Below, piece after piece: positions 13,982 through 31,285 of a DNA stretch of 38,321 nt. Location: IMG/VR virus record IMGVR_UViG_3300030419_003139, positions 1 to 38,321 of that record. One strand, written 5' to 3'. How positions within the stretch are numbered: position 1 is the first letter of the stretch; each line of letters starts with the position of its first letter. This DNA comes from a virus. Below the pieces are notes generated by a model. That model was given only the letters and a program-made list of their open reading frames with translations, was not told where the DNA came from and did no database searches. The position numbers and the translations under genes are program-made.

Positions 13982-14524
13982 TTGTCAGAAAAAAGAAAGA
14001 AGAATCCAGCACACTACGTAGACAATAAAGATTTCTACAATGCTTTGTGTGATTGGAAGGATAAAGTTATAGAAGCAGAAGCCTCTGGAGAACCAAGACC
14101 ACCAGTAACCGATTACATTGGAAGTTGCTTCTTAAAAATTGCCGAAGGACTCTCCCGGAGATCTTGCTTCAATAATTATGAATACAAGGAAGAAATGATT
14201 GGTGATGCTGTAGAAAATGCAATACTGTATGCCCACAATTTCAAGAAGGAAGGCAAAAATCCGTTCGCATATTTCACTCAGATGATGTACTATGCATTCC
14301 TAAGAAGGATACAGAAGGAAAAAAAGCAAATGTATGTCAAATATAAACTGATGGAACAACACGAAAATTCCGCAAACTTACCTAGATGGAGTGAAGAAGA
14401 TCCCCACGAAAAATTCTCTCCCAAGGGCAGCCTTAATCTGAGTGATAAAGACATCAAAAAGTTTGAACCGAAGAAGGGTGATAAGAAGTCAAAAGGGAAT
14501 ACATTAGATAAGTTTTTAAAATGA
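13982..14524 (+). CDS. 55: Late-transcription sigma factor gp55
   Basis: This small sigma70-family factor directs host RNA polymerase to TATAAATA late promoters, in T4 together with gp33 and the clamp gp45. It has 180 residues (T4: 185). NPAHYVDNKDFYNALCDWK matches the T4 N-terminus (YNYVNNKELLQAIIDWK). The sigma core (DYIGSCFLKIAEGLS, YKEEMIGDAVENAI, FAYFTQMMYYAFLRRI) is intact. I choose TTG 13982 as start: it encodes (M)SEKRKK as in T4 (MSETKP), and AAGGTGG lies five bases upstream. The alternative GTG at 13973 overlaps that ribosome site. The stop overlaps the gp47 start by ATGA. Confidence 0.94.
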   Translation: MSEKRKKNPAHYVDNKDFYNALCDWKDKVIEAEASGEPRPPVTDYIGSCFLKIAEGLSRRSCFNNYEYKEEMIGDAVENAILYAHNFKKEGKNPFAYFTQMMYYAFLRRIQKEKKQMYVKYKLMEQHENSANLPRWSEEDPHEKFSPKGSLNLSDKDIKKFEPKKGDKKSKGNTLDKFLK

Positions 14525-15597
14525 AAATACCAATTCTAACTGATACACATTTTGGAATTAGAAACGATTCTTCTCTGTTTCTAGACTACTTCATGAGGTT
14601 TTTTAATGAGGTGTTCTTTCCATATATTGAGGAAAACAATATCAGTACCGTGATTCATGCGGGTGATATCTTAGACAGAAGAAAGTACGTCAATTTTAAT
14701 ACTTTAAATAGAGTTAGGACCGAATTCTTCCAGCAGTTGTTTGAGCATTCTTGTGGGAGTGCATTCAGTGTTGTGATGCATTGCATTCCCGGAAATCACG
14801 ACACTTACTTCAAAAATACCAATGACATTAATTGCATGGAAGAGATCTTCTCTAAGCAATATCCGAATAATTTCATTTATTATGATAAACCGGCTGTTGT
14901 TAACTTGGGAGGAATGGATATAGCACTTCTTCCATGGATAAGCAAAGATAACGAAGAAGAAAGTCTAGAATTCATTAAGACCGCATCGGCAAGTTGGTTA
15001 GTAGGTCATCTGGAACTCAAAGGCTTTGAAGTTCTGAGAGGAGTTGTCCACGATTTTGGTATGGATCATAAGATCTTTAATCGATATGAGCAGGTGCTCA
15101 GCGGTCATTACCATGTCAAAAATCAAAAAGACAATGTAAAGTACTTGGGTTCACCCTATCAGATGACATTCAATGATGCTGGTGATATTAAAGGCTTTTG
15201 GGTAATTGACACAGAAACCAGAAGTCTGGAATTCATTGAAAATCCTCTAACCATGTTTCATGTCATAAATTACGACGATTCTAACAATGACTATGAAAAC
15301 GCTAATGAGTATTGCAAGAAGTTCTCTGGAAAATATGTGAAAATAATTGTAACGGAAAAGACAAAACCACATGTGCTTGATGGTTTGGTTGATGCTATGT
15401 ATGGCGAGGGCGTACATAACCTAACCGTTATTGAAGATGTAGACAGCACCACAACTTCCGAATCTTCGGAGGGAGATCTAAATAAGTCTACAATTGAACT
15501 ACTGGTTGATGATATCAAGTCTAATACCAAAATTAAAAACCAAGAGAGAATACAAAAACTCGTGAAAGAACTTTATTTGGAGGCATTGAGGACATGA
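14521..15597 (+). CDS. 47: Recombination nuclease subunit gp47 (SbcD/Mre11-like)
   Basis: This is the metallophosphoesterase nuclease partner of gp46, needed for end resection, recombination-dependent replication and host DNA breakdown. It has 358 residues (T4: 339). The five-motif phosphoesterase site is visible: DTH (Asp8, His10), HAGDILDRR, PGNHDTY, VGHLELKG and SGHYHVK. ATG 14521 overlaps the gp55 stop, so the two are coupled. The tail end overlaps the next small gene. In T4, gp46 follows almost directly; here tRNAs and a PurB-like gene lie in between. Confidence 0.95.
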   Translation: MKIPILTDTHFGIRNDSSLFLDYFMRFFNEVFFPYIEENNISTVIHAGDILDRRKYVNFNTLNRVRTEFFQQLFEHSCGSAFSVVMHCIPGNHDTYFKNTNDINCMEEIFSKQYPNNFIYYDKPAVVNLGGMDIALLPWISKDNEEESLEFIKTASASWLVGHLELKGFEVLRGVVHDFGMDHKIFNRYEQVLSGHYHVKNQKDNVKYLGSPYQMTFNDAGDIKGFWVIDTETRSLEFIENPLTMFHVINYDDSNNDYENANEYCKKFSGKYVKIIVTEKTKPHVLDGLVDAMYGEGVHNLTVIEDVDSTTTSESSEGDLNKSTIELLVDDIKSNTKIKNQERIQKLVKELYLEALRT

Positions 15598-15857
15598 AAG
15601 GTTATAGGATACATATCGATATTCCACTGGGTGACGATGAAAAGAAATCATTCCAGAAAACCAAAAACGTTATGGGGATGTTAGAGAAAGAATTTGCTAG
15701 ATTTGCTAGCATGGGCATAGAACAGTTGAATATTAGACTGGGACATGATGATGATAGGCAGAAATCCAACTACCTAATCAAGGATGAAAATGACCATGTT
15801 AGCAATAAAAAACTAAAAATGATTGTCAAACTCGCACCCACATATGATGTTGAGTGA
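15594..15857 (+). CDS. Small hypothetical protein after gp47
   Basis: The product has 87 residues and an unknown function. It starts with a beta strand (YRIHIDIPLG), has a central helix (TKNVMGMLEKEFARFASMG) and ends with a second strand pair (LKMIVKLAPTYDVE). ATG 15594 overlaps the TGA of gp47, so it is probably coupled to it, in the position where T4 has the small gene 47.1. No catalytic motif is visible. Confidence 0.7.
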   Translation: MKGYRIHIDIPLGDDEKKSFQKTKNVMGMLEKEFARFASMGIEQLNIRLGHDDDRQKSNYLIKDENDHVSNKKLKMIVKLAPTYDVE

Positions 15858-15864
15858 TGAACAG

Positions 15865-15937
15865 GGGCTGGTAGCTCAGCGGTTAGAGCACCCGACTCAT
15901 AATCGGTAAGTCGTCAGTTCGAATCTGACCCAGCCCA
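15865..15937 (+). tRNA. tRNA with CAT anticodon (Met, or Ile2 if modified)
   Basis: The 73 bases fold as a standard cloverleaf. The acceptor GGGCTGG pairs with CCAGCCC, the D-arm is GCTC/GAGC, the anticodon loop is CTCATAA (anticodon CAT at 15898-15900) and the T-arm is GTCAG-TTCGAAT-CTGAC. The anticodon stem has a C/T mismatch at its outer pair. The CCA end is not encoded. CAT can be elongator methionine or, after lysidine modification, isoleucine tRNA reading AUA; sequence alone does not settle it. Confidence 0.93.
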
Positions 15938-15946
15938 TTTTGTTAT

Positions 15947-16019
15947 GGGACGGAAGCGGATGGCATCAGCAGCATCGCTTATAACGATGTTTTCGTGAGT
16001 TCGAGTCTCACCCGTCCTA
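15947..16019 (+). tRNA. tRNA-Ile with TAT anticodon
   Basis: This is a 73-base cloverleaf. The acceptor GGGACGG pairs with CCGTCCT (one G-T), the anticodon stem CATCG/CGATG is perfect, the loop CTTATAA gives anticodon TAT (15980-15982), and the T-arm is GTGAG-TTCGAGT-CTCAC. The D-arm is weak, with about three of four pairs. UAU reads the rare isoleucine codon AUA, which bacteria normally read with the modified CAU tRNA. It lies nine bases after the first tRNA and just before the PurB-like gene. Confidence 0.87.
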
Positions 16020-16036
16020 CTTTTATGGAGGTTTAA

Positions 16037-17386
16037 ATGCAATATAATGATCCACTGCAAGAACGATACGGAAGCGATCTGATAAGGGAAATCTGGTCCG
16101 AATCGTACAAATATTCAATATGGAAGAGACTGTGGGTATCTCTGGCAGAAGCACAGTCGTATTCTGGGATGGTTGATATTCCCAACTCCACTATCAGAAA
16201 GATGAGAGAAAACACTTTTACCACTGATAGCGAAAAAATAAAGGAGTATGAGGAAGAAACAGGTCATGATGTATACTCTGCTATTTTAGAATTCAAAGAT
16301 CAGTGCGGACCAGAATATGGCAAGTTCATCCATCTAGGTGCTACCAGTCAGTTTGTGGTCGACAATACTGATTGTATACGGTTTAGGGAGTCCATGGACA
16401 TCATTATTGACAAGATGCGTATCCTTCTTAACCACATATGCAATCGAGCCAGTAGTCTTAAAGATCAAGAATGTGTTGCTTATACCCACGGTCAAAAAGC
16501 ACAAATAACCACCATTGGGCGAAGAATTGTCATGTGGGGGGAACCCATCACCATGTGTCTTGATAACATGATCCACATGAGGGAAGAAATGAAGTGGAGG
16601 GGGGCAAAGGGTGCTGTTGGTAATCAGACAGGATACTGCTATATTGATCCAGACAAAGTTGGTATGATGGAAGAATATCTCTGTGAGAGATTCGGTTTTG
16701 CATCTTTCGATTGCACTGGACAAACTTATCACCGCACACAAGATATTTTGCTTATGTCCTCCCTAGTTGCTTGTTCGGCTGCAATGGGTAAAATGGCACA
16801 AGATATTCGACTACTCTGCTCTATGCGTGAAATGTCAGAAAAGAAGGTAGAAGTGGGTTCTTCTGCTATGCCTTATAAATCTAACCCCATAACCTCCGAA
16901 AAGGTTTGCTCCCTCTCTAGAATTGTTGGTTCTATGATGTCTGTATTCACCGATACGGCATCCAATCAGTGGTTGGAAAGATCTTTGGACGATTCTGCCA
17001 ACAGAAGAATTATTTTACCCAAGATCTTTTTGATCTTAGACGAAATGGTAGACTGCTGCATCAGGCTTATCGATGGTTCAACTTTCCACTATAGACCGGA
17101 CAAAGTGTCAGAACACCTTCCTTATGCGGTTATGGAATGGGCGGTGACTAAGGCAGTGCTAAATGGATATGACAGGGCAGACATGCATGAGAAGATGAGA
17201 AAACTCGCGGAAAAATCACTCAGTGGTGATCACCTGATTAATCATGTGTTGGCAATTCCGGAATTGGATGGTGTAGATACCGGCTCTGCCAGATGTCTAA
17301 GCACCCACATCGGCAACAGTGTTTCTCAAACGGAAAACTTTGTATTTTCTTCTTTACACAAGTCTAGAATGGAAAGCCTAGTCTGA
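16037..17386 (+). CDS. purB: Adenylosuccinate lyase (PurB-like)
   Basis: This member of the fumarase/aspartase superfamily is predicted to cleave adenylosuccinate to AMP and fumarate, and SAICAR to AICAR, in purine synthesis. It has 449 residues, close to bacterial PurB. Key segments are intact: GHDVYSAI (residues 76-83), HLGATSQFVVDNTD (99-112), YTHGQKAQITT with the catalytic-site His151, and the mobile signature loop GSSAMPYKSNP (274-284) with the catalytic serine pair. The ribosome site GGAGG lies five bases before ATG 16037. It sits as a cargo gene between gp47 and gp46. Other phage purine genes are known, but a lyase here is unusual. A modified-purine role (as with PurZ) is only a possibility; no PurZ is in the window. 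Confidence 0.92.
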   Translation: MQYNDPLQERYGSDLIREIWSESYKYSIWKRLWVSLAEAQSYSGMVDIPNSTIRKMRENTFTTDSEKIKEYEEETGHDVYSAILEFKDQCGPEYGKFIHLGATSQFVVDNTDCIRFRESMDIIIDKMRILLNHICNRASSLKDQECVAYTHGQKAQITTIGRRIVMWGEPITMCLDNMIHMREEMKWRGAKGAVGNQTGYCYIDPDKVGMMEEYLCERFGFASFDCTGQTYHRTQDILLMSSLVACSAAMGKMAQDIRLLCSMREMSEKKVEVGSSAMPYKSNPITSEKVCSLSRIVGSMMSVFTDTASNQWLERSLDDSANRRIILPKIFLILDEMVDCCIRLIDGSTFHYRPDKVSEHLPYAVMEWAVTKAVLNGYDRADMHEKMRKLAEKSLSGDHLINHVLAIPELDGVDTGSARCLSTHIGNSVSQTENFVFSSLHKSRMESLV

Positions 17387-17424: not shown

Positions 17425-19161
17425 ATGCTAGTTTTTAAGAATCTCCGGTGGAAGAATTTTCTGAGTACCGGACAATATTTCAATGAAGTATACTTAAACA
17501 AGTATGATAGAACTCTTGTATCCGGAGAGAATGGGGCGGGCAAATCGACCATCTTAGATGCTCTGACATATGCCCTTTATGGAAAGTCTTTCCGTGGAAT
17601 CAATATTAAAAGCCTCATCAACTCTATTAACGAGAAAGATTGTGTTGTAGAGGTAGAGTTCGAATCCGGGGGTCATGAATATAAAATCGTTCGTGGTATG
17701 AAACCCAAGGTTTTTGAAATTTATCGAGATGGTGATTTAGTTGATCAAGAAGCAAAGGCTGTAGACTATCAGCAAATGTTAGAAGACCAAATCCTTAGAA
17801 TGACCTACAAAGCATTTTGTCAGGTTGTGATCTTGGGGTCTTCTAATTACACACCCTTTATGAAGTTGAGCACCGGTGATAGAAGAAAGGTCGTAGAAGA
17901 CCTTTTGGATATCAATATTTTTTCTTTAATGAATGTGGTCCTGAAATCACGTTTGACTTCTGCTAAAGATAAATTAGTTCTGGTAAAGGGTGCAATTTCT
18001 GCTCTGGAAGCGAAAATAGAAGGGCATGAAAGGGTCATTTCTACTCTAGAGAAGAAAAAGAAGGAATCTGTTGATAAGTATAAGGAACAAGTAGAATCTC
18101 TTGGAGAAAGAAAGAAGAGTCTAGAAGAGGCTGCTTCCGGTTTGAAGGATATAGTCACAAAGAGAGATTCGATTAATGCCGAGATCGATAAGACAGATAG
18201 AAGTCTTCTAAAATCGGAATCTATCCATTCTGAAATGGGAAAAAAGATCAAGGGCATCAATAGAGATATGAAGTTCTTCGAAGATAATGACTGCTGTCCT
18301 ACATGTGAACAGTCAATAGATTCTGAATTCAAGGACAAAATGATCTTATCCCACAAGAAGAAGAGAGAAAAGTTTGACGAAGCAGAAAAAGAAATCAGTG
18401 AAATCATAAGGGAATTTGAGAAAAAGACTGAAAGCCTGAAAATCAAGGTTAGTGACATGCAGGAAGATGTCCAAAGATTTATGGATATCGAAAAAGAAAT
18501 CATAAGTGTAAACGGTGTCATTGATCAGTGCAATAAGATGATTCAAGAGTCATCATCTTATGGAGAAGAGTACAAGAAGGAAGAGGCACTTCTTGAGAAA
18601 ACCAAGATCGAATATGAAGAAGTCAGAGGGAAGAATGATTCTTTAGTCAATGAGAAATCTGATCTAGAAATTGTTGCTTCTTTGTTGAAAGATGGGGGGA
18701 TAAAAGCAAAAATTATTAAGCATTACCTTCCCATAATGAACAATCTGATTAATAAGTTCTTGTCTAGTATGGGTTTGTTTTGTCAGTTCACACTGGATGA
18801 GCATTTTGATGAATCCATCCTTTCTAGACACAGAGATGTATTCTCCTATAACAATTTTAGTGAAGGTGAAAGGCTCAGAATAGATTTGTCTTTCCTATTC
18901 GCATGGAGAGAAATTGCTAGACTGAAAAATTCGGTATCTTGTAATCTTCTAATTCTAGACGAAGTGTTCGATTCGAGTCTAGATAATGTTGGGACAGAAG
19001 AATTCATGAAAATTGTCCATAGCATGAGGGGGGACGCAAACGTGTTTGTAATATCTCATAAGGCTGATCAGATTTCTGATAAGTTCATTAACCACATTAC
19101 CTTTGAAAAGAAAGGTAATTTCAGCACGATGACATTTTTGGATAGGAACGATGCTGACTGA
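17425..19161 (+). CDS. 46: Recombination nuclease ATPase subunit gp46 (SbcC/Rad50-like)
   Basis: This is the SMC-like ATPase partner of gp47. It has 578 residues (T4: 560). Walker A GENGAGKST is at about 34-42, followed by the Q-loop region. Long coiled-coil arms at about 170-400 surround the zinc hook CPTC (Cys291, Cys294). The signature FSEGERLRIDLS is near residue 480, Walker B LLILDE near 510 and the H-loop VISHK near 545. ATG 17425 is immediately downstream of a consensus promoter with no ribosome-binding site, so translation is probably leaderless. The end overlaps the methyltransferase start by 11 bases. Confidence 0.96.
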   Translation: MLVFKNLRWKNFLSTGQYFNEVYLNKYDRTLVSGENGAGKSTILDALTYALYGKSFRGINIKSLINSINEKDCVVEVEFESGGHEYKIVRGMKPKVFEIYRDGDLVDQEAKAVDYQQMLEDQILRMTYKAFCQVVILGSSNYTPFMKLSTGDRRKVVEDLLDINIFSLMNVVLKSRLTSAKDKLVLVKGAISALEAKIEGHERVISTLEKKKKESVDKYKEQVESLGERKKSLEEAASGLKDIVTKRDSINAEIDKTDRSLLKSESIHSEMGKKIKGINRDMKFFEDNDCCPTCEQSIDSEFKDKMILSHKKKREKFDEAEKEISEIIREFEKKTESLKIKVSDMQEDVQRFMDIEKEIISVNGVIDQCNKMIQESSSYGEEYKKEEALLEKTKIEYEEVRGKNDSLVNEKSDLEIVASLLKDGGIKAKIIKHYLPIMNNLINKFLSSMGLFCQFTLDEHFDESILSRHRDVFSYNNFSEGERLRIDLSFLFAWREIARLKNSVSCNLLILDEVFDSSLDNVGTEEFMKIVHSMRGDANVFVISHKADQISDKFINHITFEKKGNFSTMTFLDRNDAD

Positions 19162-20776
19162 TTTAGAACAATACATTGGGAAGGACAGGGTGTACTACGA
19201 AAAGAACACCTATATTGGTGACTCTTTTATTAATATCACCTTTGATGACTTACAGGATCTCAACGATGAAGAGTTTGATCAGTGGGTCAGGGATGTTCGG
19301 TCGGAGGTTTTGAGAATCTGGGATGAGCACGACATACCACCGAGGTCAGGTGGTCGCGATGTGGATGAAATTAAAGCACAAATGAACCGGATTGTTTCTA
19401 CTCCTTCTGCCAAGATTGAAGGAATTGATGATTTGGACAACGATGGAAGACCGAATGCCGTATTGAATAGAACAGGTCTTGGTGTTGTAGCGGATCAATT
19501 CTTCCCCACAATGTATAAGACTAGGATCAACCAGAGAGAACACGATGATGGGTATTCCATTTATGATCTTTTCAAAGATGACCGCTTTGAAAAATCTATG
19601 TTACATAGGTGCAGAAGACACCATAGACGGGACGGAATGTATCATTATGCTTTTACCCTACTGAAAAATGATGATACTTATGGTAAGATCAAGACAGATT
19701 CGGCTGTAGAATGGATTAAATCTTATAAAAACAACCCTAAGGTTTTTAAGGACATTGACTTCTTCGTCGAATCCATTGATCCACCCAAGGAAGTAAATGA
19801 CGGGTATTATCAGGTAAATACCGGTGACACCTTGACAATGACATACGACGAAGTTAAGGATTTATTTAGCCAGGAATACTTGGTTGATAGAAATGTTCGG
19901 AATATAAATATTAATGAACACGAAGAGGGAAGAGTTTATCGTGTTCGGATTTACAAGAAAGGACAGCGAGTATTTCCAAGAGGATTAATACCTTTCAGAA
20001 TTGGATACACGCAGCCTGCTGTAAACTTCCCGCCTTTTACAGCGAAATATCTTTACGAACGCTTCACAGAGCATCTGAAAGACCAAGAGAGGATCGTCAT
20101 ATATGATCCGAGTTCTGGTTGGGGTGGAAGGATTCTTGGAGCAATGTCTGTCAAAGACGATAGAAAAATCCACTATGTGGGTACTGACCCCAACCCAGAT
20201 AACCATTTTCCAGACAGCAACACCAGCAGATACGAATGTCTTGCCAGATTCTTCAATTCCTGTACTATTCGCGGCAATCCCATTTTTTCTCATGCTAATA
20301 CTTATGATATCTTCAATTCGTGCTCGGAAGAGATTGACCAAGAAGAGGAATTCCAAGAATACAAGGGACAGGTTGACCTTGTGTTTACATCACCGCCTTA
20401 TTTCAACAGAGAGGCGTATAGCGAGGATTCTAAGCAGTCCTATAAAAGATACGGCTCGTCTTATGAATCGTGGAAGAGGGGGTACTTGCGACCGACGTTG
20501 AAAATCTGTTACGACTGGATGAAATCGGGAGCATACATATTATGGAACATAGCAGATCTTCAGATGGGTAAGGATTTCCTCCCCCTAGAAAAAGATTCAT
20601 GCGATATTATGGAAGAAATTGGGTTTGAAAAAGTTATGATAATTAAAATGGCTCAAGAGGGAATGCCCGGAAGCAACAGAGTGGGCGAAGATGGCGTTCC
20701 CCTCCATACACGAACATGTAAGATTGGTGACAGGCATTGGAAGTATGAGCCTGTCTTTGTGTACAAGAAACCTTGA
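19151..20776 (+). CDS. Putative DNA methyltransferase (TSPPY type)
   Basis: The product has 541 residues. The C-terminal half is an amino-methyltransferase. A SAM-binding motif I (IYDPSSGWGGRILGAMS, residues 317-333) is followed by YVGTDPN (342-348) and the catalytic TSPPYFNRE (413-421), typical of N6-adenine or N4-cytosine DNA methylases. Motif I before TSPPY fits the gamma-type order. The N-terminal 280 residues have no domain I recognise and may bind DNA. No restriction enzyme gene is adjacent. The likely job is protecting phage DNA or marking it. RNA or protein methylation is less likely given TSPPY. ATG 19151 overlaps the gp46 end. Confidence 0.82.
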   Translation: MLTDLEQYIGKDRVYYEKNTYIGDSFINITFDDLQDLNDEEFDQWVRDVRSEVLRIWDEHDIPPRSGGRDVDEIKAQMNRIVSTPSAKIEGIDDLDNDGRPNAVLNRTGLGVVADQFFPTMYKTRINQREHDDGYSIYDLFKDDRFEKSMLHRCRRHHRRDGMYHYAFTLLKNDDTYGKIKTDSAVEWIKSYKNNPKVFKDIDFFVESIDPPKEVNDGYYQVNTGDTLTMTYDEVKDLFSQEYLVDRNVRNININEHEEGRVYRVRIYKKGQRVFPRGLIPFRIGYTQPAVNFPPFTAKYLYERFTEHLKDQERIVIYDPSSGWGGRILGAMSVKDDRKIHYVGTDPNPDNHFPDSNTSRYECLARFFNSCTIRGNPIFSHANTYDIFNSCSEEIDQEEEFQEYKGQVDLVFTSPPYFNREAYSEDSKQSYKRYGSSYESWKRGYLRPTLKICYDWMKSGAYILWNIADLQMGKDFLPLEKDSCDIMEEIGFEKVMIIKMAQEGMPGSNRVGEDGVPLHTRTCKIGDRHWKYEPVFVYKKP

Positions 20777-21503: not shown

Positions 21504-22187
21504 ATGGTGAGCACAATGAGTACAATGACTATTTCCAGACAGACCATTGATCTACTGAAGAACTTTGCGTCTATTAATTCCAATATCCTCATTAAACCGG
21601 GGAACACGATCAAGACCATTTCTACCTATAAGAATCTTATGGCAGAGGCTACGGTCGAAGAGACTTTTCCGGAGGAGTTTGGTATTTGGGATTTGAATAA
21701 ATTGCTTGGGACGGTGGGTTTATTTGATACACCGAATTTCGAATTCGGAGATAAGCACATGGTCATCTCCGGTGGTGGATCTAGGGTGAAATACTATTAT
21801 TCAGATCCAAAACTCCTTACTACAATCAACAAGGAGCTTAAGATGCCTGAGATCGTGGTGAATACGACCATGAGTGAAGATCATGTAAAGGAAATCCACA
21901 GAGCAGCATCTATCCTTCAGCTACCAGATCTTTCCATCTGCTCTGATCAGGGAAGCACCGTTATCAAGATTAACGATAGGAAAGATCCGACATCTAACAA
22001 TTTCGTTCTCGAAGTGGGAGAAACGGATAAAGAATTTGATTTTAGATTTAAGGTGGAAAATCTCAAGCTCTACCCCGGAAGTTATGATGTAGAAGTTGCA
22101 TCTGGAAGTGTTGCCAGATTCACCCATGGGAATTTGGAACTCAAGTATTTCGTAGCCATGGAACCGGATAGCAGATATGACGGATGA
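21504..22187 (+). CDS. 45: Sliding clamp gp45
   Basis: This is the trimeric DNA polymerase clamp and, in T4, the activator of late transcription through gp55/gp33. It has 227 residues (T4: 228). Residues 8-30 (TISRQTIDLLKNFASINSN) match the T4 start (KLSKDTTALLKNFATINSG). FGIWDLNKLLGTVGLF and YDVEVASGSVARFTH are family-typical. ATG 21504 has AAGGA nine bases upstream. ATG 21525 would line up exactly with the T4 N-terminus and remains possible, but its ribosome site is poor. The end overlaps the next gene by 11 bases. Confidence 0.95.
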   Translation: MVSTMSTMTISRQTIDLLKNFASINSNILIKPGNTIKTISTYKNLMAEATVEETFPEEFGIWDLNKLLGTVGLFDTPNFEFGDKHMVISGGGSRVKYYYSDPKLLTTINKELKMPEIVVNTTMSEDHVKEIHRAASILQLPDLSICSDQGSTVIKINDRKDPTSNNFVLEVGETDKEFDFRFKVENLKLYPGSYDVEVASGSVARFTHGNLELKYFVAMEPDSRYDG

Positions 22188-22620
22188 AAAGAGAACAATC
22201 TATATTGCCGGTCCAATGAGGGGTAAACCCAATTGGAATTATGATGCTTTTAATAGGGCAGAGGCTTTTCTTATTGAAAGAGGGTGGAATGTGGTCAATC
22301 CTGCTACTCTGGATACCAATTACCAAGAGACTGCAGAATTAAACACCACACCAGTCGATTTCGATCCGGATAATGATGCCAAACATAGAAGTATTAATAG
22401 ACGGATTATGAAGCGAGATTGCGATGCTATTTGTGACGAGTGCGATGCAATCTTTATGTTGAAAGGATGGCAGACCTCCCAAGGGGCTTGTGCGGAATTT
22501 TACTTGTCTTGTTCGATTGGTTTAGATATATATTATGAAACTAGTGAAGACAATGACTGTACTCTTATCCATAAAATGAATGGAACTGGAATGAAACTAT
22601 TGAAGGATATGATTGAATGA
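22177..22620 (+). CDS. DUF4406 nucleoside deoxyribosyltransferase-like protein
   Basis: The product has 147 residues. It opens with IYIAGPMRGKPNWNYDAFNRAE, the signature of DUF4406 and related nucleoside 2-deoxyribosyltransferase-like folds. The later CDAIFMLKGWQTSQGACAEFYLS is the other conserved block (GW..S.GA..E). The fold usually binds nucleotides or their analogues, so a nucleotide-scavenging or base-exchange role is plausible; the exact reaction is unknown. An acidic insert (PVDFDPDNDAKH) lies in the middle. The gene is wedged between gp45 and gp44 and overlaps both, so it belongs to the replication operon. Confidence 0.85.
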   Translation: MTDEKRTIYIAGPMRGKPNWNYDAFNRAEAFLIERGWNVVNPATLDTNYQETAELNTTPVDFDPDNDAKHRSINRRIMKRDCDAICDECDAIFMLKGWQTSQGACAEFYLSCSIGLDIYYETSEDNDCTLIHKMNGTGMKLLKDMIE

Positions 22621-23582
22621 TGACCGAGACTGTGATCCAGCAAACTGCCGATCAGTTTCTGTGGGTTGAAAAATACCGCCCGCAATCAATTGACGATTGC
22701 ATATTACCGGAAAGTCTGAAATCGACTTTTAAAGAAATGGTAGAATCGGGAGAGATGCAGAATCTCCTTCTATCTGGTGGTGCTGGTTGTGGTAAGACCA
22801 CTGTCGCCAAGGCTCTATGCAATGAGATTGGTGCAGACTGGATGATGATCAACTGCTCCGAAGATGGAAATATTGACACCTTAAGGACGAAGATTAGGAA
22901 CTTCGCTAGCACGGTTTCCTTTCATGGATCTAGAAAGGTCGTGATCCTAGACGAGTTCGACTATTCCAATGCTCAGTCTACTCAACCGGCACTTCGCGGA
23001 TTCATCGAAGAATTTGCGAACAACTGTCGGTTCATCCTTACATGTAACTTCAAAAATAGAATCATCAAACCAATTCATTCTAGATGCACCTGCATTCATT
23101 TCAATTTCAGCAAGAAAGACATTACCAAGATGTGCGGGTCTTTTTTGGAAAGAATCAAGAGCATTTTAGACAATGAAGAAATCTCTTATGATGATAAAAT
23201 CCTTGCTAAACTGATACTTAAACACTCTCCCGATTTCAGGAGAGTAATCAATGAACTGCAAAGGTACTCAGTATCGGGAACAATCGATGTCGGTATCTTA
23301 GCCGAAATTGATAATATCCGGGTTAAGGATCTAATGACCGGGATGAAGGCAAAGAATTTCGGAGATGTAAGACAATGGGTGGTGGATAATTTAGACAACG
23401 ATCCCAGTCAGTTGTATAGAAAAATCTACGATAGTCTTTACGATTACTTGGACTCCCAGAGCATCCCCACCTGCATTCTGATACTAGCAGAATATCAGTA
23501 TAAGTCTGCCTTCGCTAACGATCAAGAAATTAATACTACTGCTTGTTTAGTCCAGATAATGATGGAGTGCACTTTCAAATGA
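22617..23582 (+). CDS. 44: Clamp loader large subunit gp44
   Basis: This AAA+ ATPase, with gp62, opens and loads the gp45 clamp onto primer-template DNA. It has 321 residues (T4: 319). The RFC-like start WVEKYRPQSIDDCILPE is followed by Walker A SGGAGCGKTT (about 53-62) and Walker B VVILDEFDYSN (108-118). Sensor 1 is in FILTCNFKNRI, then SRC (the arginine-finger motif) in IHSRCTCIHF. ATG 22617 overlaps the preceding TGA; the stop overlaps the cochaperonin ATG at 23579. Confidence 0.96.
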   Translation: MMTETVIQQTADQFLWVEKYRPQSIDDCILPESLKSTFKEMVESGEMQNLLLSGGAGCGKTTVAKALCNEIGADWMMINCSEDGNIDTLRTKIRNFASTVSFHGSRKVVILDEFDYSNAQSTQPALRGFIEEFANNCRFILTCNFKNRIIKPIHSRCTCIHFNFSKKDITKMCGSFLERIKSILDNEEISYDDKILAKLILKHSPDFRRVINELQRYSVSGTIDVGILAEIDNIRVKDLMTGMKAKNFGDVRQWVVDNLDNDPSQLYRKIYDSLYDYLDSQSIPTCILILAEYQYKSAFANDQEINTTACLVQIMMECTFK

Positions 23583-24666: not shown

Positions 24667-25338
24667 GTGAATCTTCGTGATATTGATACAGTATGGATAA
24701 ATCTAGATGAAGCTACGGAAAATGCAAAAAGGATGGAAGACCTTTTTGACCGTTTAAGTCTATCTAAGACTCATAGAATATCTGCTATAAAGAAACCCAG
24801 TCCTCCCGGTACTAGACCATCAGAGGTCCATTATGTGGGTGTGGGGGAATCCCATATAAAGTGCTTGGAATTCATAAGAGACAAGCTACCAGCGGTCATT
24901 TTTGAGGATGATGTAGAAATAACTGAGGCATTTCCTTTAGATGGTGAGATTCCGGATTTCCCGGAAGGAACAGATGCAATATATCTTGGCACTTCACACG
25001 GCGACAACAATTACGAGGCTGTAGACATTGGTGGTGGATATGCTAAGATAAAGAGAATGTTAGCAGCCCATGCCATTCTTTACTTGACACCCAGATATGT
25101 AGATGCTGTTATTGACATTGCTAAAAAGGCTATGTATGAATGGAAAAGACCATTCGACCTAGGGACTTATTCAATAGTAGAGAACTATAATGTCATTACT
25201 CCCCATGTCCCATGGTTTTACCAGAAGGCAGCACCAGACGCTTTGAACAACTGGGAAGAAATCACTAGGACACCTTTAAGAATACTTGGTCAGAAGAGCA
25301 TGATCAGCACCATTGGACCAAAGGGGATGAATCTATGA
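24667..25338 (+). CDS. Glycosyltransferase, GT25/LPS-like
   Basis: The product has 223 residues. The N-terminus IDTVWINLDEATENAKRME is typical of GT25 enzymes (..VINLD....R...). SHIKCLEFIRDK, then VIFEDDVEI (78-86) with the acidic nucleotide-sugar/metal site, and AAHAILYLTPRYVDAV complete the pattern. Sugar donor and acceptor are unknown. The start is GTG 24667, one base after the regA TAA, with AGGAGA seven bases upstream. It is the first gene of the sugar cassette and overlaps the fucose synthase by four bases. Confidence 0.82.
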   Translation: MNLRDIDTVWINLDEATENAKRMEDLFDRLSLSKTHRISAIKKPSPPGTRPSEVHYVGVGESHIKCLEFIRDKLPAVIFEDDVEITEAFPLDGEIPDFPEGTDAIYLGTSHGDNNYEAVDIGGGYAKIKRMLAAHAILYLTPRYVDAVIDIAKKAMYEWKRPFDLGTYSIVENYNVITPHVPWFYQKAAPDALNNWEEITRTPLRILGQKSMISTIGPKGMNL

Positions 25339-26228
25339 GGTTAGTGACAGGTGGAAGCGGTCTAGTTGGTTATTCAATTGATGCTGATCTAAAACCTACT
25401 AGCAAGGAACTCAATCTTTTATGGGGCAGCGAAGAAATTGCTGAATATCTAAGAAAGAATGAGGTAAGTGAGGTTATCCACTGTGCAGGAAAAATCGGTG
25501 GAGTTCTTACCAATTCTGAAAATCAGGCATCCTTCTTAGTAGACAACACGAAAATGAACATCAATATTCTGGAAGCCTGCAGACTGTCTGGTGTTGAAAA
25601 GGTAGTATGTTTTGCTTCCACTTGTGTTTTTCCGGCGAAGGCAGAATATCCTTTAACCGTTAAGGGGATGCAGTCGGGTCCACCGCATCATACTAATTAT
25701 GGTTATGCCTATTCTAAGAGGCTGATGCTGGAACAGTGTAATGCATATAAAGAACAATATGGATTGAACTACAATGTTTTGATCCCATGCAACATTTATG
25801 GTCCCAATGATAATTATGATCTTTACGAGAGTCATGTTATCCCTGCCCTAATTCACAAAGCATACCACGCAAAATGGAGCAACACCCCTCTAAAAGTTTG
25901 GGGTGATGGGACACCACTTAGGGAATTCATTTATTCTAAGGATGTGGCAGACATAGCGGTTAAAATGCTGGATTACGAGGGAGAGCCTATCATTGCTTCT
26001 CCCGACGAAGAACATAGCATTGGAGAAGCGGCAGAAATAATTGCTGAATACTATGAAATTGATGAAGTAATTTATGAGACTGATAAACCCTCCGGGATTC
26101 ACAGGAAGCCTTCTGACAATTCATCATTAAAGGACTTCTTGCCAGATATAACTTTTACCCCTCTGAAAGAAGGACTATATAAAGCGATGGAGTGGTTTGA
26201 TAATAATTATGAGGTGGCAAGGCGATGA
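25335..26228 (+). CDS. fcl: GDP-L-fucose synthase
   Basis: This is a short-chain dehydrogenase that epimerises and reduces GDP-4-keto-6-deoxymannose to GDP-L-fucose with NADPH. It has 297 residues (E. coli WcaG: 321). It shows GGSGLVG (6-12) for cofactor binding, CAGKIGGV, the catalytic Ser-Thr-Cys (95-97, in FASTCVFP) and Tyr124/Lys128 in YAYSK. NIYGPNDNY with SHVIPAL (His168) matches the E. coli active-site pattern Ser107/Cys109/Tyr136/Lys140/His179. A GDP-colitose synthase (ColC) is the main alternative, since it is a close relative. The next gene makes its substrate; they overlap by ATGA. Confidence 0.9.
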   Translation: MRLVTGGSGLVGYSIDADLKPTSKELNLLWGSEEIAEYLRKNEVSEVIHCAGKIGGVLTNSENQASFLVDNTKMNINILEACRLSGVEKVVCFASTCVFPAKAEYPLTVKGMQSGPPHHTNYGYAYSKRLMLEQCNAYKEQYGLNYNVLIPCNIYGPNDNYDLYESHVIPALIHKAYHAKWSNTPLKVWGDGTPLREFIYSKDVADIAVKMLDYEGEPIIASPDEEHSIGEAAEIIAEYYEIDEVIYETDKPSGIHRKPSDNSSLKDFLPDITFTPLKEGLYKAMEWFDNNYEVARR

Positions 26229-27217
26229 AAGTAGCAATAATCAGTGGTATATGCGGGCAAGATGGTTCTTATCTAGCGGAGCATCTACTAAGTCAGAGAT
26301 ATAAAGTAATTGGTTTGAAAAGACGCACCAGTGTTATTAACACTGAGAGAGTCGACCATATTTACAACAATCCCAACTTTGAGATGAGGTATTACGATCT
26401 CAATGATGCCTCATCAGTCTATAGATATATGATAGAATACCATCCGGATGAGGTTTATAACCTCGCTGCACAGTCTCATGTCAAGGTATCTTTTGATATC
26501 CCTTATAATACAATAGAGGGTATATGCATGGGTACTCTTCACTGGTTAGAGGCTATTAAAGCGGTTAACCCCGAATGCAGATTTTATCAGGCATCCTCTT
26601 CAGAAATGTTTGGTGATAATCCGGATGTGCCAGAAAAAGGATATAATGAAGATAGTAGGTTAATGCCAGCATCCCCGTATGCATGTGCCAAGGTTTTTGC
26701 ACACAATCTGGTTAGAAATTACAGAGAGTCCTACGGTCTTCATGCTTCCGGAGGAATTTTGTTCAACCATGAAAGTCCAAGAAGAGGTGAGACTTTTGTT
26801 ACGAGAAAGATTACCATTGCCGCTAGCAAGATAAAACTTGGTTTGCAGGATAGGCTCAGCCTAGGTAATCTGTCCGCTAAGAGAGACTGGGGTTATGCCG
26901 GGGATTATGTGAAGGCTATGCATTTAATGATGCAGCAAGACAAAGCAGATGATTACGTTATTTCCACCGGCGAGACTTACTCAGTGGAGGATTTCTTAAA
27001 GAGAGTCTTCGAATATATGGAATTGGGGGATTGGAGAGACTATGTTGATATAGATCCCAAATTCTTTAGACCCCAAGAAGTCCCCTATCTCTTGGGAGAT
27101 TGCTCTAAGGCAAAAGAAGTTCTGGGATGGGAAGTAGAAACGAATATAGACGGTTTGGTCAAAATGATGTGTGATGAAGACCTGAAGAAGTGTAAGTTGC
27201 ATCACGAGAATACCTGA
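26225..27217 (+). CDS. gmd: GDP-mannose 4,6-dehydratase
   Basis: It converts GDP-mannose to GDP-4-keto-6-deoxymannose. It has 330 residues, a little short for the family. Visible motifs are the cofactor loop GICGQDGSYLAEHLL, AAQSHVKVSF, SSSEMFG with catalytic Glu127, YACAK (Tyr152/Lys156), NHESPRRGETFVTRKI and LGNLSAKRDWGYAGDYV, all hallmark GMD segments. Isoleucine uses AUA in 8 of 18 positions, unlike the capsid gene. Neighbouring genes provide three enzymes that could use its product. It overlaps the fucose synthase before it and the fucosyltransferase after it. Confidence 0.96.
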   Translation: MKVAIISGICGQDGSYLAEHLLSQRYKVIGLKRRTSVINTERVDHIYNNPNFEMRYYDLNDASSVYRYMIEYHPDEVYNLAAQSHVKVSFDIPYNTIEGICMGTLHWLEAIKAVNPECRFYQASSSEMFGDNPDVPEKGYNEDSRLMPASPYACAKVFAHNLVRNYRESYGLHASGGILFNHESPRRGETFVTRKITIAASKIKLGLQDRLSLGNLSAKRDWGYAGDYVKAMHLMMQQDKADDYVISTGETYSVEDFLKRVFEYMELGDWRDYVDIDPKFFRPQEVPYLLGDCSKAKEVLGWEVETNIDGLVKMMCDEDLKKCKLHHENT

Positions 27218-28014
27218 TGATTTCTTGCCTCTGGGCTGGTCATTATGGAAGGCTTGGGAATGCCATGTTCCAATATGCTGCTCTGGTGGGTGCATCCCAT
27301 AAGACTGGGCATGAGTGTGTATTTGACTATCAGAATCCCGGAAGTCTAGGATCTTACTTCAATCTATCAATACCCACCAATATGAGCAGGGAAGAAATCA
27401 ACCAAAATATCCACAATGTCTATGACCAGCCTAAATTCTGCTATGATCAGTCTTTTGAGGAAATCGAAGACAGTACTGATATCAGAGGTTACTTTCAGTC
27501 TTCTAAGTTTTTTGAAGGAGTGGAAGATGAAATCAGAAAAGAATTCACTCCAATAGATGAGGTCATTGATAGTTGTTCCACGATAGAGTCTTCTTTAAGA
27601 GAGAAATCTGGTGGGAAAAGGCTAGTGTCTATCCATGTTAGAAGGGGTGACTACATGATGCTAAAAGATCACCATCCCCCCTGTGAAGTATCTTATTACA
27701 AAAATGCTATATCACAGTTTGACATCAATAATAGTGTTTTTGTGGTTTTTTCAGATGATATGAACTGGTGTAAGAAAGTATTTGAAGAGAATGTGATTTA
27801 TGTCGATGGTGGTGCACCCGTACAAGACATGTATATGATGTCCAAATGTGATGACAACATTATTGCTAATAGTTCATTTAGTTGGTGGGGTGCGTGGTTG
27901 AATAGTAATCAGGACCGAAAGGTAGTTGCTCCCTCCGTCTGGTTTGGACCAGCAAAGGATCCAGCCGAGCATCCGATGCACGACCTTTATGAAGAAGGGT
28001 GGATAGTAGTATGA
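27217..28014 (+). CDS. Alpha-1,2-fucosyltransferase-like (GT11)
   Basis: The product has 265 residues. GRLGNAMFQYAAL (11-23) begins the GT11 pattern. HVRRGDYM (140-147) is the GDP-fucose binding motif of alpha-1,2 and alpha-1,6 fucosyltransferases. VVFSDDMNWCKKVF and IIANSSFSWWGAWLN (215-229) complete the three family motifs. The enzyme should transfer L-fucose from GDP-fucose made by the two preceding genes. It is cytoplasmic or peripheral at the membrane, with no transmembrane segment visible. The acceptor is unknown. Confidence 0.94.
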   Translation: MISCLWAGHYGRLGNAMFQYAALVGASHKTGHECVFDYQNPGSLGSYFNLSIPTNMSREEINQNIHNVYDQPKFCYDQSFEEIEDSTDIRGYFQSSKFFEGVEDEIRKEFTPIDEVIDSCSTIESSLREKSGGKRLVSIHVRRGDYMMLKDHHPPCEVSYYKNAISQFDINNSVFVVFSDDMNWCKKVFEENVIYVDGGAPVQDMYMMSKCDDNIIANSSFSWWGAWLNSNQDRKVVAPSVWFGPAKDPAEHPMHDLYEEGWIVV

Positions 28015-28865
28015 TTATAAAAACATATGGTTGTCCGTTCAGTCATGATGTTTCATCTTGTGTTGGTAAAGTTCCTTCTAACCATACATGGCATCACACC
28101 CAAAGTCTAGGAGAAACCGACGAAAGCAAAATTGCACTTTATTGTGATTTTGATATATCTGGTGCTCTAAATGACACCACAAATGAATATAAGTTTTTGT
28201 GGCTATCAGAGTCAAGAGCAATTGCTTATGATCAGAACAAATACTTCTGCAAGAACTTCGATGCCATGTGTGACGCATACGATGCCATATTTACTCATGA
28301 TAGAAAATACTTGTGCTCTATGCTAAGTAAGAAAAATATCAGATACATTCCACCTGCCTCCAACCTAACTTGGATAAAAGATCCCGGAATAAGGGAAAAA
28401 TCTAAGATCTGCTCCTTCATTTGTTCTGGAAAGGAGCAATGCCCCGGTCACAGAATTAGGAATGAAACGGCTAAAAAGGTGGCACATGGAAATAATGTCG
28501 ACCTATATGGAAGATTTTTCGGCAGTCCCATAGAGAAAAAAGAAGAAGCACTGGACCATTATATGTTTTCTTTTACTTTTGAAAATGCAGCATATGATGA
28601 CTATTACACAGAGAAAATCATGGATTGTTTTGCCACGGGAACCATTCCGGTCTACTATGGGATGCCGGGAATAGGAAAGTTCTTCAATGAAGATGGCATT
28701 ATAAGAGTAGACTATAATACAAATCTGGAAGAACTGCTACAGAGTCTAACACCAGAATTGTATGAGTCCAAAATGGATGCCGTGAGGGAGAACTATGAAA
28801 AGTGCATTAGCACAGAATTGGCAGATGATATGATTTATAGAGAGATAAAGGATATTGTGGGATGA
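28011..28865 (+). CDS. Alpha-1,3/1,4-fucosyltransferase-like (GT10)
   Basis: The product has 284 residues. The conserved GT10 core is FSFTFENAA (186-194), YYTEKIMDCFATGTIPVYYG (198-217) and FFNEDGII, close to the family pattern FENS...YVTEKI.D....G.VP.YWG. GT10 enzymes add fucose to GlcNAc or glucose in Lewis-type structures. Upstream, ICSGKEQCPGHRIRNETA is the usual Rossmann-fold junction. ATG 28011 overlaps the TGA of the GT11 gene, so it is co-expressed with it. The heptad-repeat tail of Helicobacter enzymes is missing. Confidence 0.93.
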   Translation: MIIKTYGCPFSHDVSSCVGKVPSNHTWHHTQSLGETDESKIALYCDFDISGALNDTTNEYKFLWLSESRAIAYDQNKYFCKNFDAMCDAYDAIFTHDRKYLCSMLSKKNIRYIPPASNLTWIKDPGIREKSKICSFICSGKEQCPGHRIRNETAKKVAHGNNVDLYGRFFGSPIEKKEEALDHYMFSFTFENAAYDDYYTEKIMDCFATGTIPVYYGMPGIGKFFNEDGIIRVDYNTNLEELLQSLTPELYESKMDAVRENYEKCISTELADDMIYREIKDIVG

Positions 28866-29785
28866 CAGTAAAACCATACAACAACGTAATATTTTTCAAT
28901 TATTTCCATAGGGGTGACATCCACATGGGAAGGAACTTCATCAAGAAAATGATGGACCTCATTCCTTCAAATAATTATTTTTCCTCTCATAGTAATGACC
29001 CATACATCTTATCGGATGTTGAAGGCTTGACCCACATTCCATTTAGTGAATTTGAAAAGTTTGGAATACCACATGTGGTTCCCTTCGCCAAAGATAATAA
29101 TGGCAACTTATTCGTTAACACTTGGATAGGGCAGTCATGTGGGGACAAGGCGGACTGCTGTTCTTTCCCAAATTATATAAAGGTGTTTAATCAGACATTA
29201 TCCCAGTTGGGACTAGAAGAGATGGAAGGCGGGGAAGAAATATTCCCTTCTATTGATTATTCTTACTTTGATATAAATGGAGAAGTGGATCTTTTCTTCG
29301 ACACTATTGGCGATAACGTCGTTTTAATTAGTAATGGAGATGTGCTATCTGGTCAGTGTGAAAATTTCGACTTCAATCCTATCATAAAAAAGTTGTCAGA
29401 GAATCACAGTGATTTGGATTTTATTATAACCAATTCTGGATCAGAGAAGATCGACGGAAATTTATATGACAATGTTTTCTATGCAGAAGACCTGATAAAA
29501 AAAGATGGATGTGATCTTAATGAAATATCTTATATTAGCACCAAATGTCGGGCAATAGTGGGAAGGAATTCTGGTCCCCATACTTTTTGCTTGACCAAGG
29601 AAAATATAACTAACGAGGACATGATTAATATAGTAATCTGTGAGAAGGAAAAAGAGGCTGACTATAGTGCACACATTTATCCTGAATGCAAAATGAAGAC
29701 AGTGTGGGCATCCTATGAGGACACTGATCAAGTTTATGATTTAATCAGTGGTTGTCTTGCCAAGATAGGAGAGGTGGTGCGATGA
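28862..29785 (+). CDS. Glycosyltransferase-like protein (heptosyltransferase-type fold?)
   Basis: The product has 307 residues and no firm family. FFNYFHRGDIHMGRNFIKKM near the N-terminus, LISNGDVLSG mid-way and the late block YISTKCRAIVGRNSGPHTF recall GT9/GT-B proteins, where a similar S.C...VG..SGP segment binds the donor. It is a neighbour of a DUF6165 gene and sits amid transferases, so a role in sugar transfer or glycan recognition is inferred. ATG 28862 overlaps the GT10 stop. Confidence 0.6.
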   Translation: MTVKPYNNVIFFNYFHRGDIHMGRNFIKKMMDLIPSNNYFSSHSNDPYILSDVEGLTHIPFSEFEKFGIPHVVPFAKDNNGNLFVNTWIGQSCGDKADCCSFPNYIKVFNQTLSQLGLEEMEGGEEIFPSIDYSYFDINGEVDLFFDTIGDNVVLISNGDVLSGQCENFDFNPIIKKLSENHSDLDFIITNSGSEKIDGNLYDNVFYAEDLIKKDGCDLNEISYISTKCRAIVGRNSGPHTFCLTKENITNEDMINIVICEKEKEADYSAHIYPECKMKTVWASYEDTDQVYDLISGCLAKIGEVVR

Positions 29786-30168
29786 AAGTAGAAGTGGCAA
29801 TCGGTGAAGTTCTTGATAAAATAACCATATTGGATATCAAGTTAGAAAGAATAGATGATGAAGACAGGCTCAGATATATCAGAACGGAAAGAGCAGTTCT
29901 GATAGAGGCACTAAATAGTGAAGGGTTGGAAATTGATTCTGAACTCTATTCTGAACTGAAGGACATAAACACCAAGATATGGGACACGGAAGCAGGATTT
30001 AGAGAAAAAGAAGAATCCCAACAGTTTGATGATGAATTCGTTCAGTTTGCCAGACTGAACGCAAAATATAATGATGAAAGATTTTTGGTTAAAAATAGAA
30101 TTAACGAACATTATGATTCCCATGTGAGAGAACAAAAATCGTATGACAGGCTCTATAATACAAATTGA
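29782..30168 (+). CDS. DUF6165 family protein
   Basis: The product has 128 residues, almost all helical. VEVAIGEVLDKITILDIKLERI is the signature opening of DUF6165, and LKDINTKIWDTEAGFREKEE and DERFLVKNRINEHYDS follow the same family. These proteins are often seen beside glycosyltransferases in surface-polysaccharide clusters; the biochemical role is unknown. ATG 29782 is preferred to the TTG at 29752, since GAGGTGGTGCG precedes it. The end overlaps the next gene by 26 bases. Confidence 0.82.
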   Translation: MKVEVAIGEVLDKITILDIKLERIDDEDRLRYIRTERAVLIEALNSEGLEIDSELYSELKDINTKIWDTEAGFREKEESQQFDDEFVQFARLNAKYNDERFLVKNRINEHYDSHVREQKSYDRLYNTN

Positions 30169-31276
30169 ACCATGGATCGACTACCGAGAACTAGATGAAC
30201 TAAAGAGGGTGGTTGAATCCACTTATGTTGTAGAACACGATCTGACCAAAGAATTTGAAGGAATGATTTGTGATCTAACCGGGTCGAAGTATGCAGTAGC
30301 AATGACCAACGGCACTGCGGCTCTTTTTTGCTGTCTGAAAGCACTGGGTATAGGGGAAGGGGATGAAGTTATTGTCCCCAATATGACCTTTATTGCAAGT
30401 TCCAATTCTGTTCTGATGGCAGGTGCTACCCCGGTGCTTTGTGAGGTAGATAAAGACACATTCTGTATTGATGTGAAAGAAGCAGAAAAATGTGTAACTG
30501 ATAAAACTAAGGCTATAATGCCGGTTCACCTTTACGGTCAAAGTGCGGATATGGATTCCATTATGGAATTCGCCAAGAAGCACAATATAAGGGTAATAGA
30601 AGATGCTGCCCAAGGTGTCGGAGTCTCATTTAAGGACCAACATGTGGGTACATTTGGTGATGTAGGTGTTCTATCCTTTTATGGGAACAAAACAATAACC
30701 TGCGGAGAAGGTGGTGTTGTCCTAACTGATGACAAAAATATCAGGGACGAGTGTTATCGGCTTAAGAATCATGGAAGAGATGGAAAAGGTGTTTTTAAGC
30801 ACTACCATATAGGCTATAATTTTTGCTTTACCGAGATGCAAGCAGCGATTGGTATATCTCAACTGAAAAAATTACCTGAGATAATCAAGAGGAAGAAAGA
30901 GATACACGATCTGTATTATGAAAAACTGGATGATGCATTTTGCCAAGCAGAGGGTCTTGTTGCTGTCAGAAATTCTGACCATTGCACACCCGTGCACTGG
31001 TTTACCTCTTTCTTATATCCATACCCGAAGTCGCTTGAAGACCATCTTTTAGAAAATGGCATCCAGACCAGAAAATTCTTTTATCCATTGGATAAACAGC
31101 CTTGTTATGAATCAAATGATGATATAGTGAAACAAGGGGACTATTCAATTAGTAATGATATATACAAGAGAGGAATATCCCTTCCTTCTGCATATAATTT
31201 GACTGAGGAAGACCAAGAGAAAGTCATATATCATATAAAAGAATGGTTGTTTTGGAAGAATTGTGATGTACATTGA
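30143..31276 (+). CDS. Sugar aminotransferase, GDP-perosamine synthase-like
   Basis: This PLP-dependent DegT/DnrJ/EryC1 aminotransferase has 377 residues. TNGTAALFCCLKALGIGEGD (55-74), EDAAQGVG and LSFYGNKTITCGEGG with the PLP lysine (Lys183) are present. The FFYPLDKQPCYE region and RGISLPS near the C-terminus parallel Vibrio RfbE perosamine synthase (FFGNKTITSGEGG, FFYP...P.YE, RGINLPS). Because GMD in this cassette makes GDP-4-keto-6-deoxymannose, transfer of an amino group at C4 to give GDP-perosamine is the likeliest reaction. Other 4-amino sugars are possible, since the substrate cannot be read from motifs alone. Confidence 0.78.
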   Translation: MTGSIIQIEPWIDYRELDELKRVVESTYVVEHDLTKEFEGMICDLTGSKYAVAMTNGTAALFCCLKALGIGEGDEVIVPNMTFIASSNSVLMAGATPVLCEVDKDTFCIDVKEAEKCVTDKTKAIMPVHLYGQSADMDSIMEFAKKHNIRVIEDAAQGVGVSFKDQHVGTFGDVGVLSFYGNKTITCGEGGVVLTDDKNIRDECYRLKNHGRDGKGVFKHYHIGYNFCFTEMQAAIGISQLKKLPEIIKRKKEIHDLYYEKLDDAFCQAEGLVAVRNSDHCTPVHWFTSFLYPYPKSLEDHLLENGIQTRKFFYPLDKQPCYESNDDIVKQGDYSISNDIYKRGISLPSAYNLTEEDQEKVIYHIKEWLFWKNCDVH

Positions 31277-31285
31277 GGTGACGAT

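Follow-up and report, generated by a model that had tools for sequence, protein, structure and literature searches.

A PurB-like lyase gene in the gp47–gp46 slot of T4-like viruses, with a probable role in finishing an unusual DNA base

Introduction

Among the closest described systems for the gene reported here are the 2-aminoadenine (Z) pathways of phiVC8 and S-2L, two phages that use the host lyase according to the relevant passages of PMC8342488, in which the structure 6FM1 is given as phiVC8 PurZ. An excerpt of the 2021 S-2L paper states that the lyase step from dSMP to dZMP was not found on phage genomes. Another phage of interest is Ghobes, which is handled as one of the PurZ0 phages by a 2026 paper on Z-phage nucleotide enzymes (PMC12884076); a term search showed that PurB, lyase, myovir-, gp43 and family B are all absent from that paper. 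On the enzyme side, the reference is human adenylosuccinate lyase (ADSL), with His159, Ser289/Ser290 and Arg396/His400 named as catalytic residues and Arg303 as contacting the substrate phosphate in the sections seen of PMC6301967; a reference on R303C is given in a passage of PMC4341013. The carboxymethylcytosine paper PMC12783734 was dropped as a source, since PurB is mentioned only in the introduction in the portion at hand. In the titles and abstract openings of the open-licence literature, neither a phage lyase in Z synthesis nor a PurZ in a T4-like phage was found.

Here, a lyase gene is described in a virus record of 38,321 bases (the window, meaning the whole stretch of DNA analysed), which is probably a fragment. 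The gene probably serves to complete an unusual DNA base, a step for which other phages depend on a host enzyme, since its sequenced relatives pair the lyase with a synthetase of the 2-aminoadenine precursor.

Results

The window and the gp47–gp46 slot

The gene content of the window is T4-like, with terminase, sheath, tube, portal, gp21, gp22, gp23-like, UvsY, UvsW and gp55 genes, in addition to gp47, gp46, gp45, gp44, gp62 and RegA. The nearest cultured phages by capsid protein are Pelagibacter phage HTVC008M and the Methylophilales phages Melnitz (55.6% identity), and a DNA-level near-search with 15 kb of the window against phages gave matches to major capsid genes only. Directly after gp46, a 541-aa protein (19151-20776) carries a C-terminal N6/N4 DNA methyltransferase domain. 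A large sugar cassette fills 24667-38321, with GDP-mannose dehydratase and epimerase types, GT11 and GT10 fucosyltransferase types, two DegT aminotransferases, a GT29 sialyltransferase-like protein, a CMP-sugar transferase and NeuB. This cassette points to phage-made fucose and sialic-acid-like glycans.

Table 1. Position of the lyase gene, its neighbours and the DUF4406 locus in the window
Feature	Position	Strand	Evidence
gp47 (SbcD-like), upstream flank of the lyase slot	14521..15597	+	phrog_100, E 9.7e-100
87-aa ORF between gp47 and the lyase	15594..15857	+	45% / 58% identity to G001 / G005 ORFs
tRNA-Met (cat)	15865..15937	+	ARAGORN
tRNA-Ile (tat)	15947..16020	+	ARAGORN
PurB/ADSL-type lyase, proposed dSMP (N6-succino-2-amino-dAMP) lyase	16037..17386	+	TIGR00928, PDB, AF2/Foldseek, catalytic residues
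gp46 (SbcC-like), downstream flank of the lyase slot	17425..19161	+	phrog_77, E 5.5e-162
gp45 sliding clamp, flank of the DUF4406 gene	21504..22187	+	PF09116, phrog_223
DUF4406 / nucleoside-deoxyribosyltransferase-like protein, between gp45 and gp44	22177..22620	+	PF14359, 70.5 bits (cut-off 22)
gp44 clamp loader, flank of the DUF4406 gene	22617..23582	+	phrog_168, E 5.8e-124

The original prediction placed the lyase between gp47 and gp46 and regarded it as splitting a tight recombination gene pair. The position is correct, although the lyase shares the gap with the 87-aa ORF, which had no Pfam match, and with two tRNA genes (Table 1). The pair is not always tight. Among 80 related loci, gp47 and gp46 can both be seen in 40; the gap between them ranges there from 16 to 2133 nt, and in the 36 of these 40 that lack the lyase it spans 16 to 1102 nt; in HTVC008M the slot is occupied by a 2OG-Fe(II) oxygenase. 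The slot is therefore variable, with the lyase among the genes that can fill it. Its placement is nevertheless not a matter of chance, since all ten T4-like records in which the lyase was found (window, G001-G005, G008, G014, G018 and G042) have it in this same slot.

Identity, fold and active site of the lyase

The lyase ORF begins with ATG and encodes 449 aa with no internal stops. It matches TIGR00928 (purB) over residues 7-432 with an E-value of 8.7e-86, the score of 288.4 bits being below the curated equivalog cut-off of 326.2, and it matches Pfam Lyase_1 with 92.6 bits (cut-off 27). Two of the relatives' lyases exceed the TIGR00928 cut-off (G001 with 331.4 bits and G008 with 340.4), and that of G005 is below it (284.2). 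The PHROG family that holds relatives of the window lyase, phrog_1703, has no named function. The best PDB sequence match was human ADSL (4ffx, E 2.9e-78). Its AlphaFold2 model (pLDDT 84.2) was used for a Foldseek search, and the top matches were all solved ADSLs (E 3.3e-25, TM ~0.8), as expected of an ADSL fold.

His151 of the window lyase aligns with His159 of the human enzyme, the SSAMPYKSNP loop with Ser289/Ser290 of the C3 loop, and Arg380/His384 with Arg396/His400. The catalytic His, the Ser-Ser loop, the Lys and the Glu (H151, S275/S276, K281 and E288) are present in 8/8 T4-like lyases. The claim of an intact full-length lyase with His151 and the SSAMPYKSNP loop was thus borne out by the ORF, the family models, the PDB alignment and the AlphaFold2 model, and from sequence and model the gene is predicted to encode a catalytically intact-looking lyase of the adenylosuccinate lyase fold.

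Lyase-bearing relatives and their synthetases

A scan of viral records with the single window lyase sequence returned 15 stretches, none of them a confirmed relative. A loop-pattern scan found four lyase records, and an alignment of five lyases as query found 16, seven of them longer than 100 kb. The PurZ model matched six of these seven (G001, G005, G008, G015, G023 and G021) and gave no match in G016 (113 kb). No PurZ was found in the other nine lyase records (<83 kb), where G002-G004 were searched with PF00709 only.

The original prediction had proposed a search for PurZ in the rest of the genome. No purZ was found among the window ORFs put through family searches in this 38-kb fragment; in the relatives, the search gave a PurZ-type synthetase in all three syntenic T4-like lyase records >100 kb (G001, G005 and G008). 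A scan for close relatives of the G001 PurZ yielded ten records, and the lyase was present in three of them, exactly those >100 kb. The nearest lyase records, L002 (8.6 kb) and L003 (10.4 kb), showed no purZ. Within viral_contigs, exact copies of the window lyase's THGQKAQIT motif were confined to these two short records, and no long contig with a lyase of this type was found there, so the window lyase's own branch has never been seen with purZ. The tetranucleotide usage of the window is nearest to G001 and G005 (r 0.78), a measure that is silent on whether the window's phage has purZ.

The synthetase of G001 (136,240 bases) has 357 aa, and its best solved match was 6tnh/6fko/6fm1 with E 6.8e-55, followed by S-2L PurZ at 2.3e-29, the best PurA being at 8.3e-24. 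It scored 211.7 bits with the PurZ model versus at most 137 with the PurA models; the PurZ proteins of this clade fall short of the 300 bits that the PurZ model requires (0/20 records above). In 11/11 phage synthetases (alignment A3), a Ser stands at the position of an Asp of E. coli PurA, which we take to be Asp13. The same alignment shows this PurZ signature in the relatives' synthetase and also in phiVC8, S-2L, SH-Ab 15497, Ghobes and Galactica. The motifs of the T4-like clade, TTVT and FLNFVNY, closely resemble the TTVT and FLNFCNY of phiVC8. The AlphaFold2 model of PurZ was unusable (pLDDT 41).

Outside the T4-like clade, PurZ and PurB are paired in G015, G023, Ghobes, Galactica and MaF61. 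G015 (L055, L069; 341 kb) and G023 (L066, L068; 395 kb) have the lyase together with a PurZ-type synthetase bearing the Ser signature, and they are possibly jumbo phages with Z-DNA. In the phage collection, the 60 top-scoring PurZ matches fall on records of 38 to 67 kb, and a spread sample of 60 of the 210 PurZ-matching records adds two larger ones, MaF61 (168 kb) and a 735-kb phage without annotation. In G021 (L063, L067, L076; 128 kb), the lyase is accompanied by IMP dehydrogenase (IMPDH) and by a synthetase that is PurA-type both by motif (GDSGKGK) and by score (PF00709 2.2e-42 vs PurZ model 2.5e-35), i.e., by AMP-branch and GMP-branch genes. The purB of Microcystis phage MaAM05 was dropped as a phage example, as it sits among metG, proS, lepA, ftsH and glgX (L240, 182712-207680) and these neighbours make the region look like bacterial host DNA.

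Companion genes

IMPDH was found in G001, G005 and G008. The 371-aa enzyme of G001 aligned end to end with constructs of similar length, presumably lacking the CBS part, and in two pieces on full-length IMPDHs, so that it appears to be devoid of the CBS part itself. Directly after purZ, G001 carries a gene of the adenylate kinase (ADK) family (33.1 bits, cut-off 26.8). Counterparts were detected by tblastn in 7/9 other purZ loci, and in the remaining two (L018 and L025) the contigs end inside purZ. This kinase gene overlaps or abuts purZ. In addition, G001 encodes the glutamine synthetase GlnII (34082-35179), a class II (adenosylcobalamin) ribonucleotide reductase (RNR, 36000-37937), the CBS-free IMPDH (44858-45973), ThyX, a family B polymerase (gp43 homologue) and a dUTPase-like protein, the last being found in G008 and not in G005.

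SAICAR synthetase, the AIRS family and GMP synthetase were each found in 0/6 records. BLASTP and phmmer searches with S-2L, phiVC8 and SH-Ab 15497 queries gave no DatZ or MazZ homologues in G001, G005, G008, G010 and the window. The DatZ and MazZ (or DUF550/DUF5664) companions of Z phages were therefore not seen, and a rough HD/MazG motif scan gave only noise. The polymerase of G001 is of family B and not a DpoZ-type DNA polymerase I or a PrimPol.

Co-occurrence and controls

Relatives of the 541-aa methyltransferase that lies beside gp46 are encoded by at least 555 viral loci, so that this protein was rejected as a marker for lyase-bearing viruses; the best 80 of these loci were used as controls instead. 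In the lyase-free control records drawn from these best 80 loci (39 to 135 kb), PurZ and PurB were each found in 0/18, and none of the seven lyase-free relatives of at least 84 kb had PurZ. Among the records of at least 84 kb, three had both lyase and PurZ and seven had neither (Fisher p = 0.008, with kinship ignored). The suggestion that the lyase processes a precursor of PurZ type thus gains indirect support from the relatives, with no PurZ found in the window itself.

Presence of the DUF4406 gene, which lies between gp45 and gp44, goes with that of the lyase. Of 82 loci given, among them the window and G008, 43 show both slots; the two genes occur together in five of these, neither occurs in 37, DUF4406 alone in one and the lyase alone in none. 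The sole locus with DUF4406 and no lyase is L154 (14529-14915), a 21.5-kb contig too short to exclude purZ. The DUF4406 protein reached 20.1 bits with Nuc_deoxyrib_tr, which is below the cut-off. The PHROG label 'MazG-like' was rejected because Pfam assigns it to DUF4406. As a DmtZ, it lacks the conserved Asp12 and reads YIAGPMRG versus YFARPVD of Ghobes gp53 by eye, gp53 being used as DmtZ reference on motif alone.

Divergence of the lyases

In a tree of 49 lyases, for which 35 of the 80 bacterial loci were given and one (L207) was skipped for length, the eight T4-like lyases form one group (95/82), separate from those of bacteria and of other phages. Two of the eight, from the window and L002, share a stem of 2.3 changes per site, and the remaining six, which come from the same slot, have diverged less. 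Residues were counted in the 76 of 80 bacterial homologues that passed the length filter. Residues invariant in these 76 are lost in the window lyase (His82, Leu147, Thr196, Leu203 and Gln272) and also in that of L002, and both lyases have the motif THGQKAQ in place of THFQPAQ. At position 289, Lys is found in 8/8 T4-like lyases and Arg in 76/76 bacterial and 7/7 other viral ones, with Gln in Ghobes and Galactica.

Given the score below the purB cut-off, the long stem and the lost invariant residues, the substrate of the window lyase may have drifted. Lys289 and the lost residues are compatible with a changed substrate, but Lys289 as a substrate mark is countered by G015 and G023, which have PurZ yet keep Arg.

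Discussion

Proposed pathway and alternatives

The window provides the lyase family, fold and catalytic residues, and its relatives provide the PurZ-type, kinase-like, IMPDH and RNR genes. On this basis, the window lyase likely works in a phage 2-aminoadenine pathway, converting dSMP into dZMP. In this scheme, IMP would be converted into GMP by a phage IMPDH without CBS domains, as encoded by the relatives, and by the host GMP synthetase. Reduction to the deoxy level by a class II RNR like that of G001 would then lead to dGMP. The PurZ-type synthetase would combine dGMP and aspartate into dSMP, from which the window lyase would release dZMP and fumarate. The adenylate-kinase-like enzyme encoded beside purZ would phosphorylate dZMP, and the T4-like family B polymerase would incorporate dZTP. 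We infer in this way a purZ in the window's phage, the substrates of the lyase and the kinase, and Z in the DNA. A broader proposal, which we advance tentatively and hold to be somewhat less than an even bet, is that 2-aminoadenine takes the place of adenine in a lineage of T4-like myoviruses that has a family B polymerase but no DatZ/MazZ, with its own specialised dSMP lyase in the gp47–gp46 slot, a dZMP kinase beside purZ and a CBS-free IMPDH.

The main alternative is ordinary auxiliary metabolism, in which the lyase would convert S-AMP to AMP (or SAICAR to AICAR) for host purine supply and the relatives' PurZ would be unrelated. The full ADSL active site is kept and ADSLs perform both reactions, G021 does pair a lyase with a true PurA-type synthetase and IMPDH, and a viral adenylosuccinate lyase has been described as metabolic compensation in vent viromes in part of PMC5513705. 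However, the partner synthetase in the T4-like clade is PurZ-type and not PurA, the presence of the lyase tracks PurZ, and an IMPDH would pull IMP away from AMP. The AMP supply envisaged by the original prediction is weakened in the relatives by the Ser in place of the PurA Asp and by the absence of SAICAR synthetase, AIRS family and GMP synthetase genes, and we regard auxiliary metabolism as unlikely.

Two further readings start from the divergence of the window and L002 lyases. The lyase could act on another succino-compound, for instance to complete the transfer of an amine from aspartate to some other base, nucleotide or sugar; the altered THGQKAQ motif, the lost invariant residues and the long stem would suit it, as would the large sugar cassette of the window with its two aminotransferases. 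Divergence is weaker, however, in the six remaining T4-like lyases of the tree, which occupy this slot too and whose long records carry PurZ, and family searches revealed no other aspartate-ligating partner in the window, which leaves this with little probability. Smaller still is the chance of a dead or decaying passenger gene with no current role: a long branch and the loss of some conserved residues would fit decay, against which stand the full-length frame, the catalytic residues kept throughout the T4-like lyases and the constant slot. A role in 2-aminoadenine synthesis is thus the reading we prefer. If true, the range of Z-DNA takes in large T4-like viruses whose replisome is of family B, a Z phage can do without the host lyase, and the question is raised of how the nucleotide pool is controlled without DatZ and MazZ.

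Comparison with known systems

The window lyase resembles human ADSL (4ffx/2j91/2vd6/5nx9), an enzyme of eukaryote type, in fold, length, catalytic His, Ser-Ser loop, Lys, Glu and the lid Arg/His, but with ~32% identity. Arg303 of the human enzyme corresponds to position 289 of the window lyase, which is Lys in the T4-like lyases.

The PurZ0-type actinophages Ghobes and Galactica are alike in having an annotated adenylosuccinate lyase and a PurA-like synthetase with the Ser signature. They differ in genome size (45 and 81 kb), are not T4-like, and carry DNA polymerase I and dUTPase-like genes; their lyases are 24-28% identical to that of the window.

Flavobacterium phage MaF61 is a cultured phage, which makes the preferred reading testable. 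It has a PurZ-type synthetase (GSSGKGK, MNFVNY), a lyase, an annotated guanylate kinase and an RNR (loci L241 and L242), and a contractile tail is reported in PMC13269007, where no mention of succinate, aminoadenine or purine was found in the text available. Its lyase is distant from that of the window (24% identity over 55% of the query) and adjoins hypothetical genes, without being annotated between gp47 and gp46.

With respect to phiVC8 and S-2L, these two phages carry datZ and mazZ, whereas the T4-like relatives combine IMPDH with a kinase-like gene and a lyase of their own, with no datZ or mazZ found, in a T4-like genome with a family B polymerase. The likeness to the phiVC8/S-2L Z pathway lies in the relatives' PurZ, which has the Ser signature, the FLNFxNY motif and 38% identity to phiVC8 PurZ.
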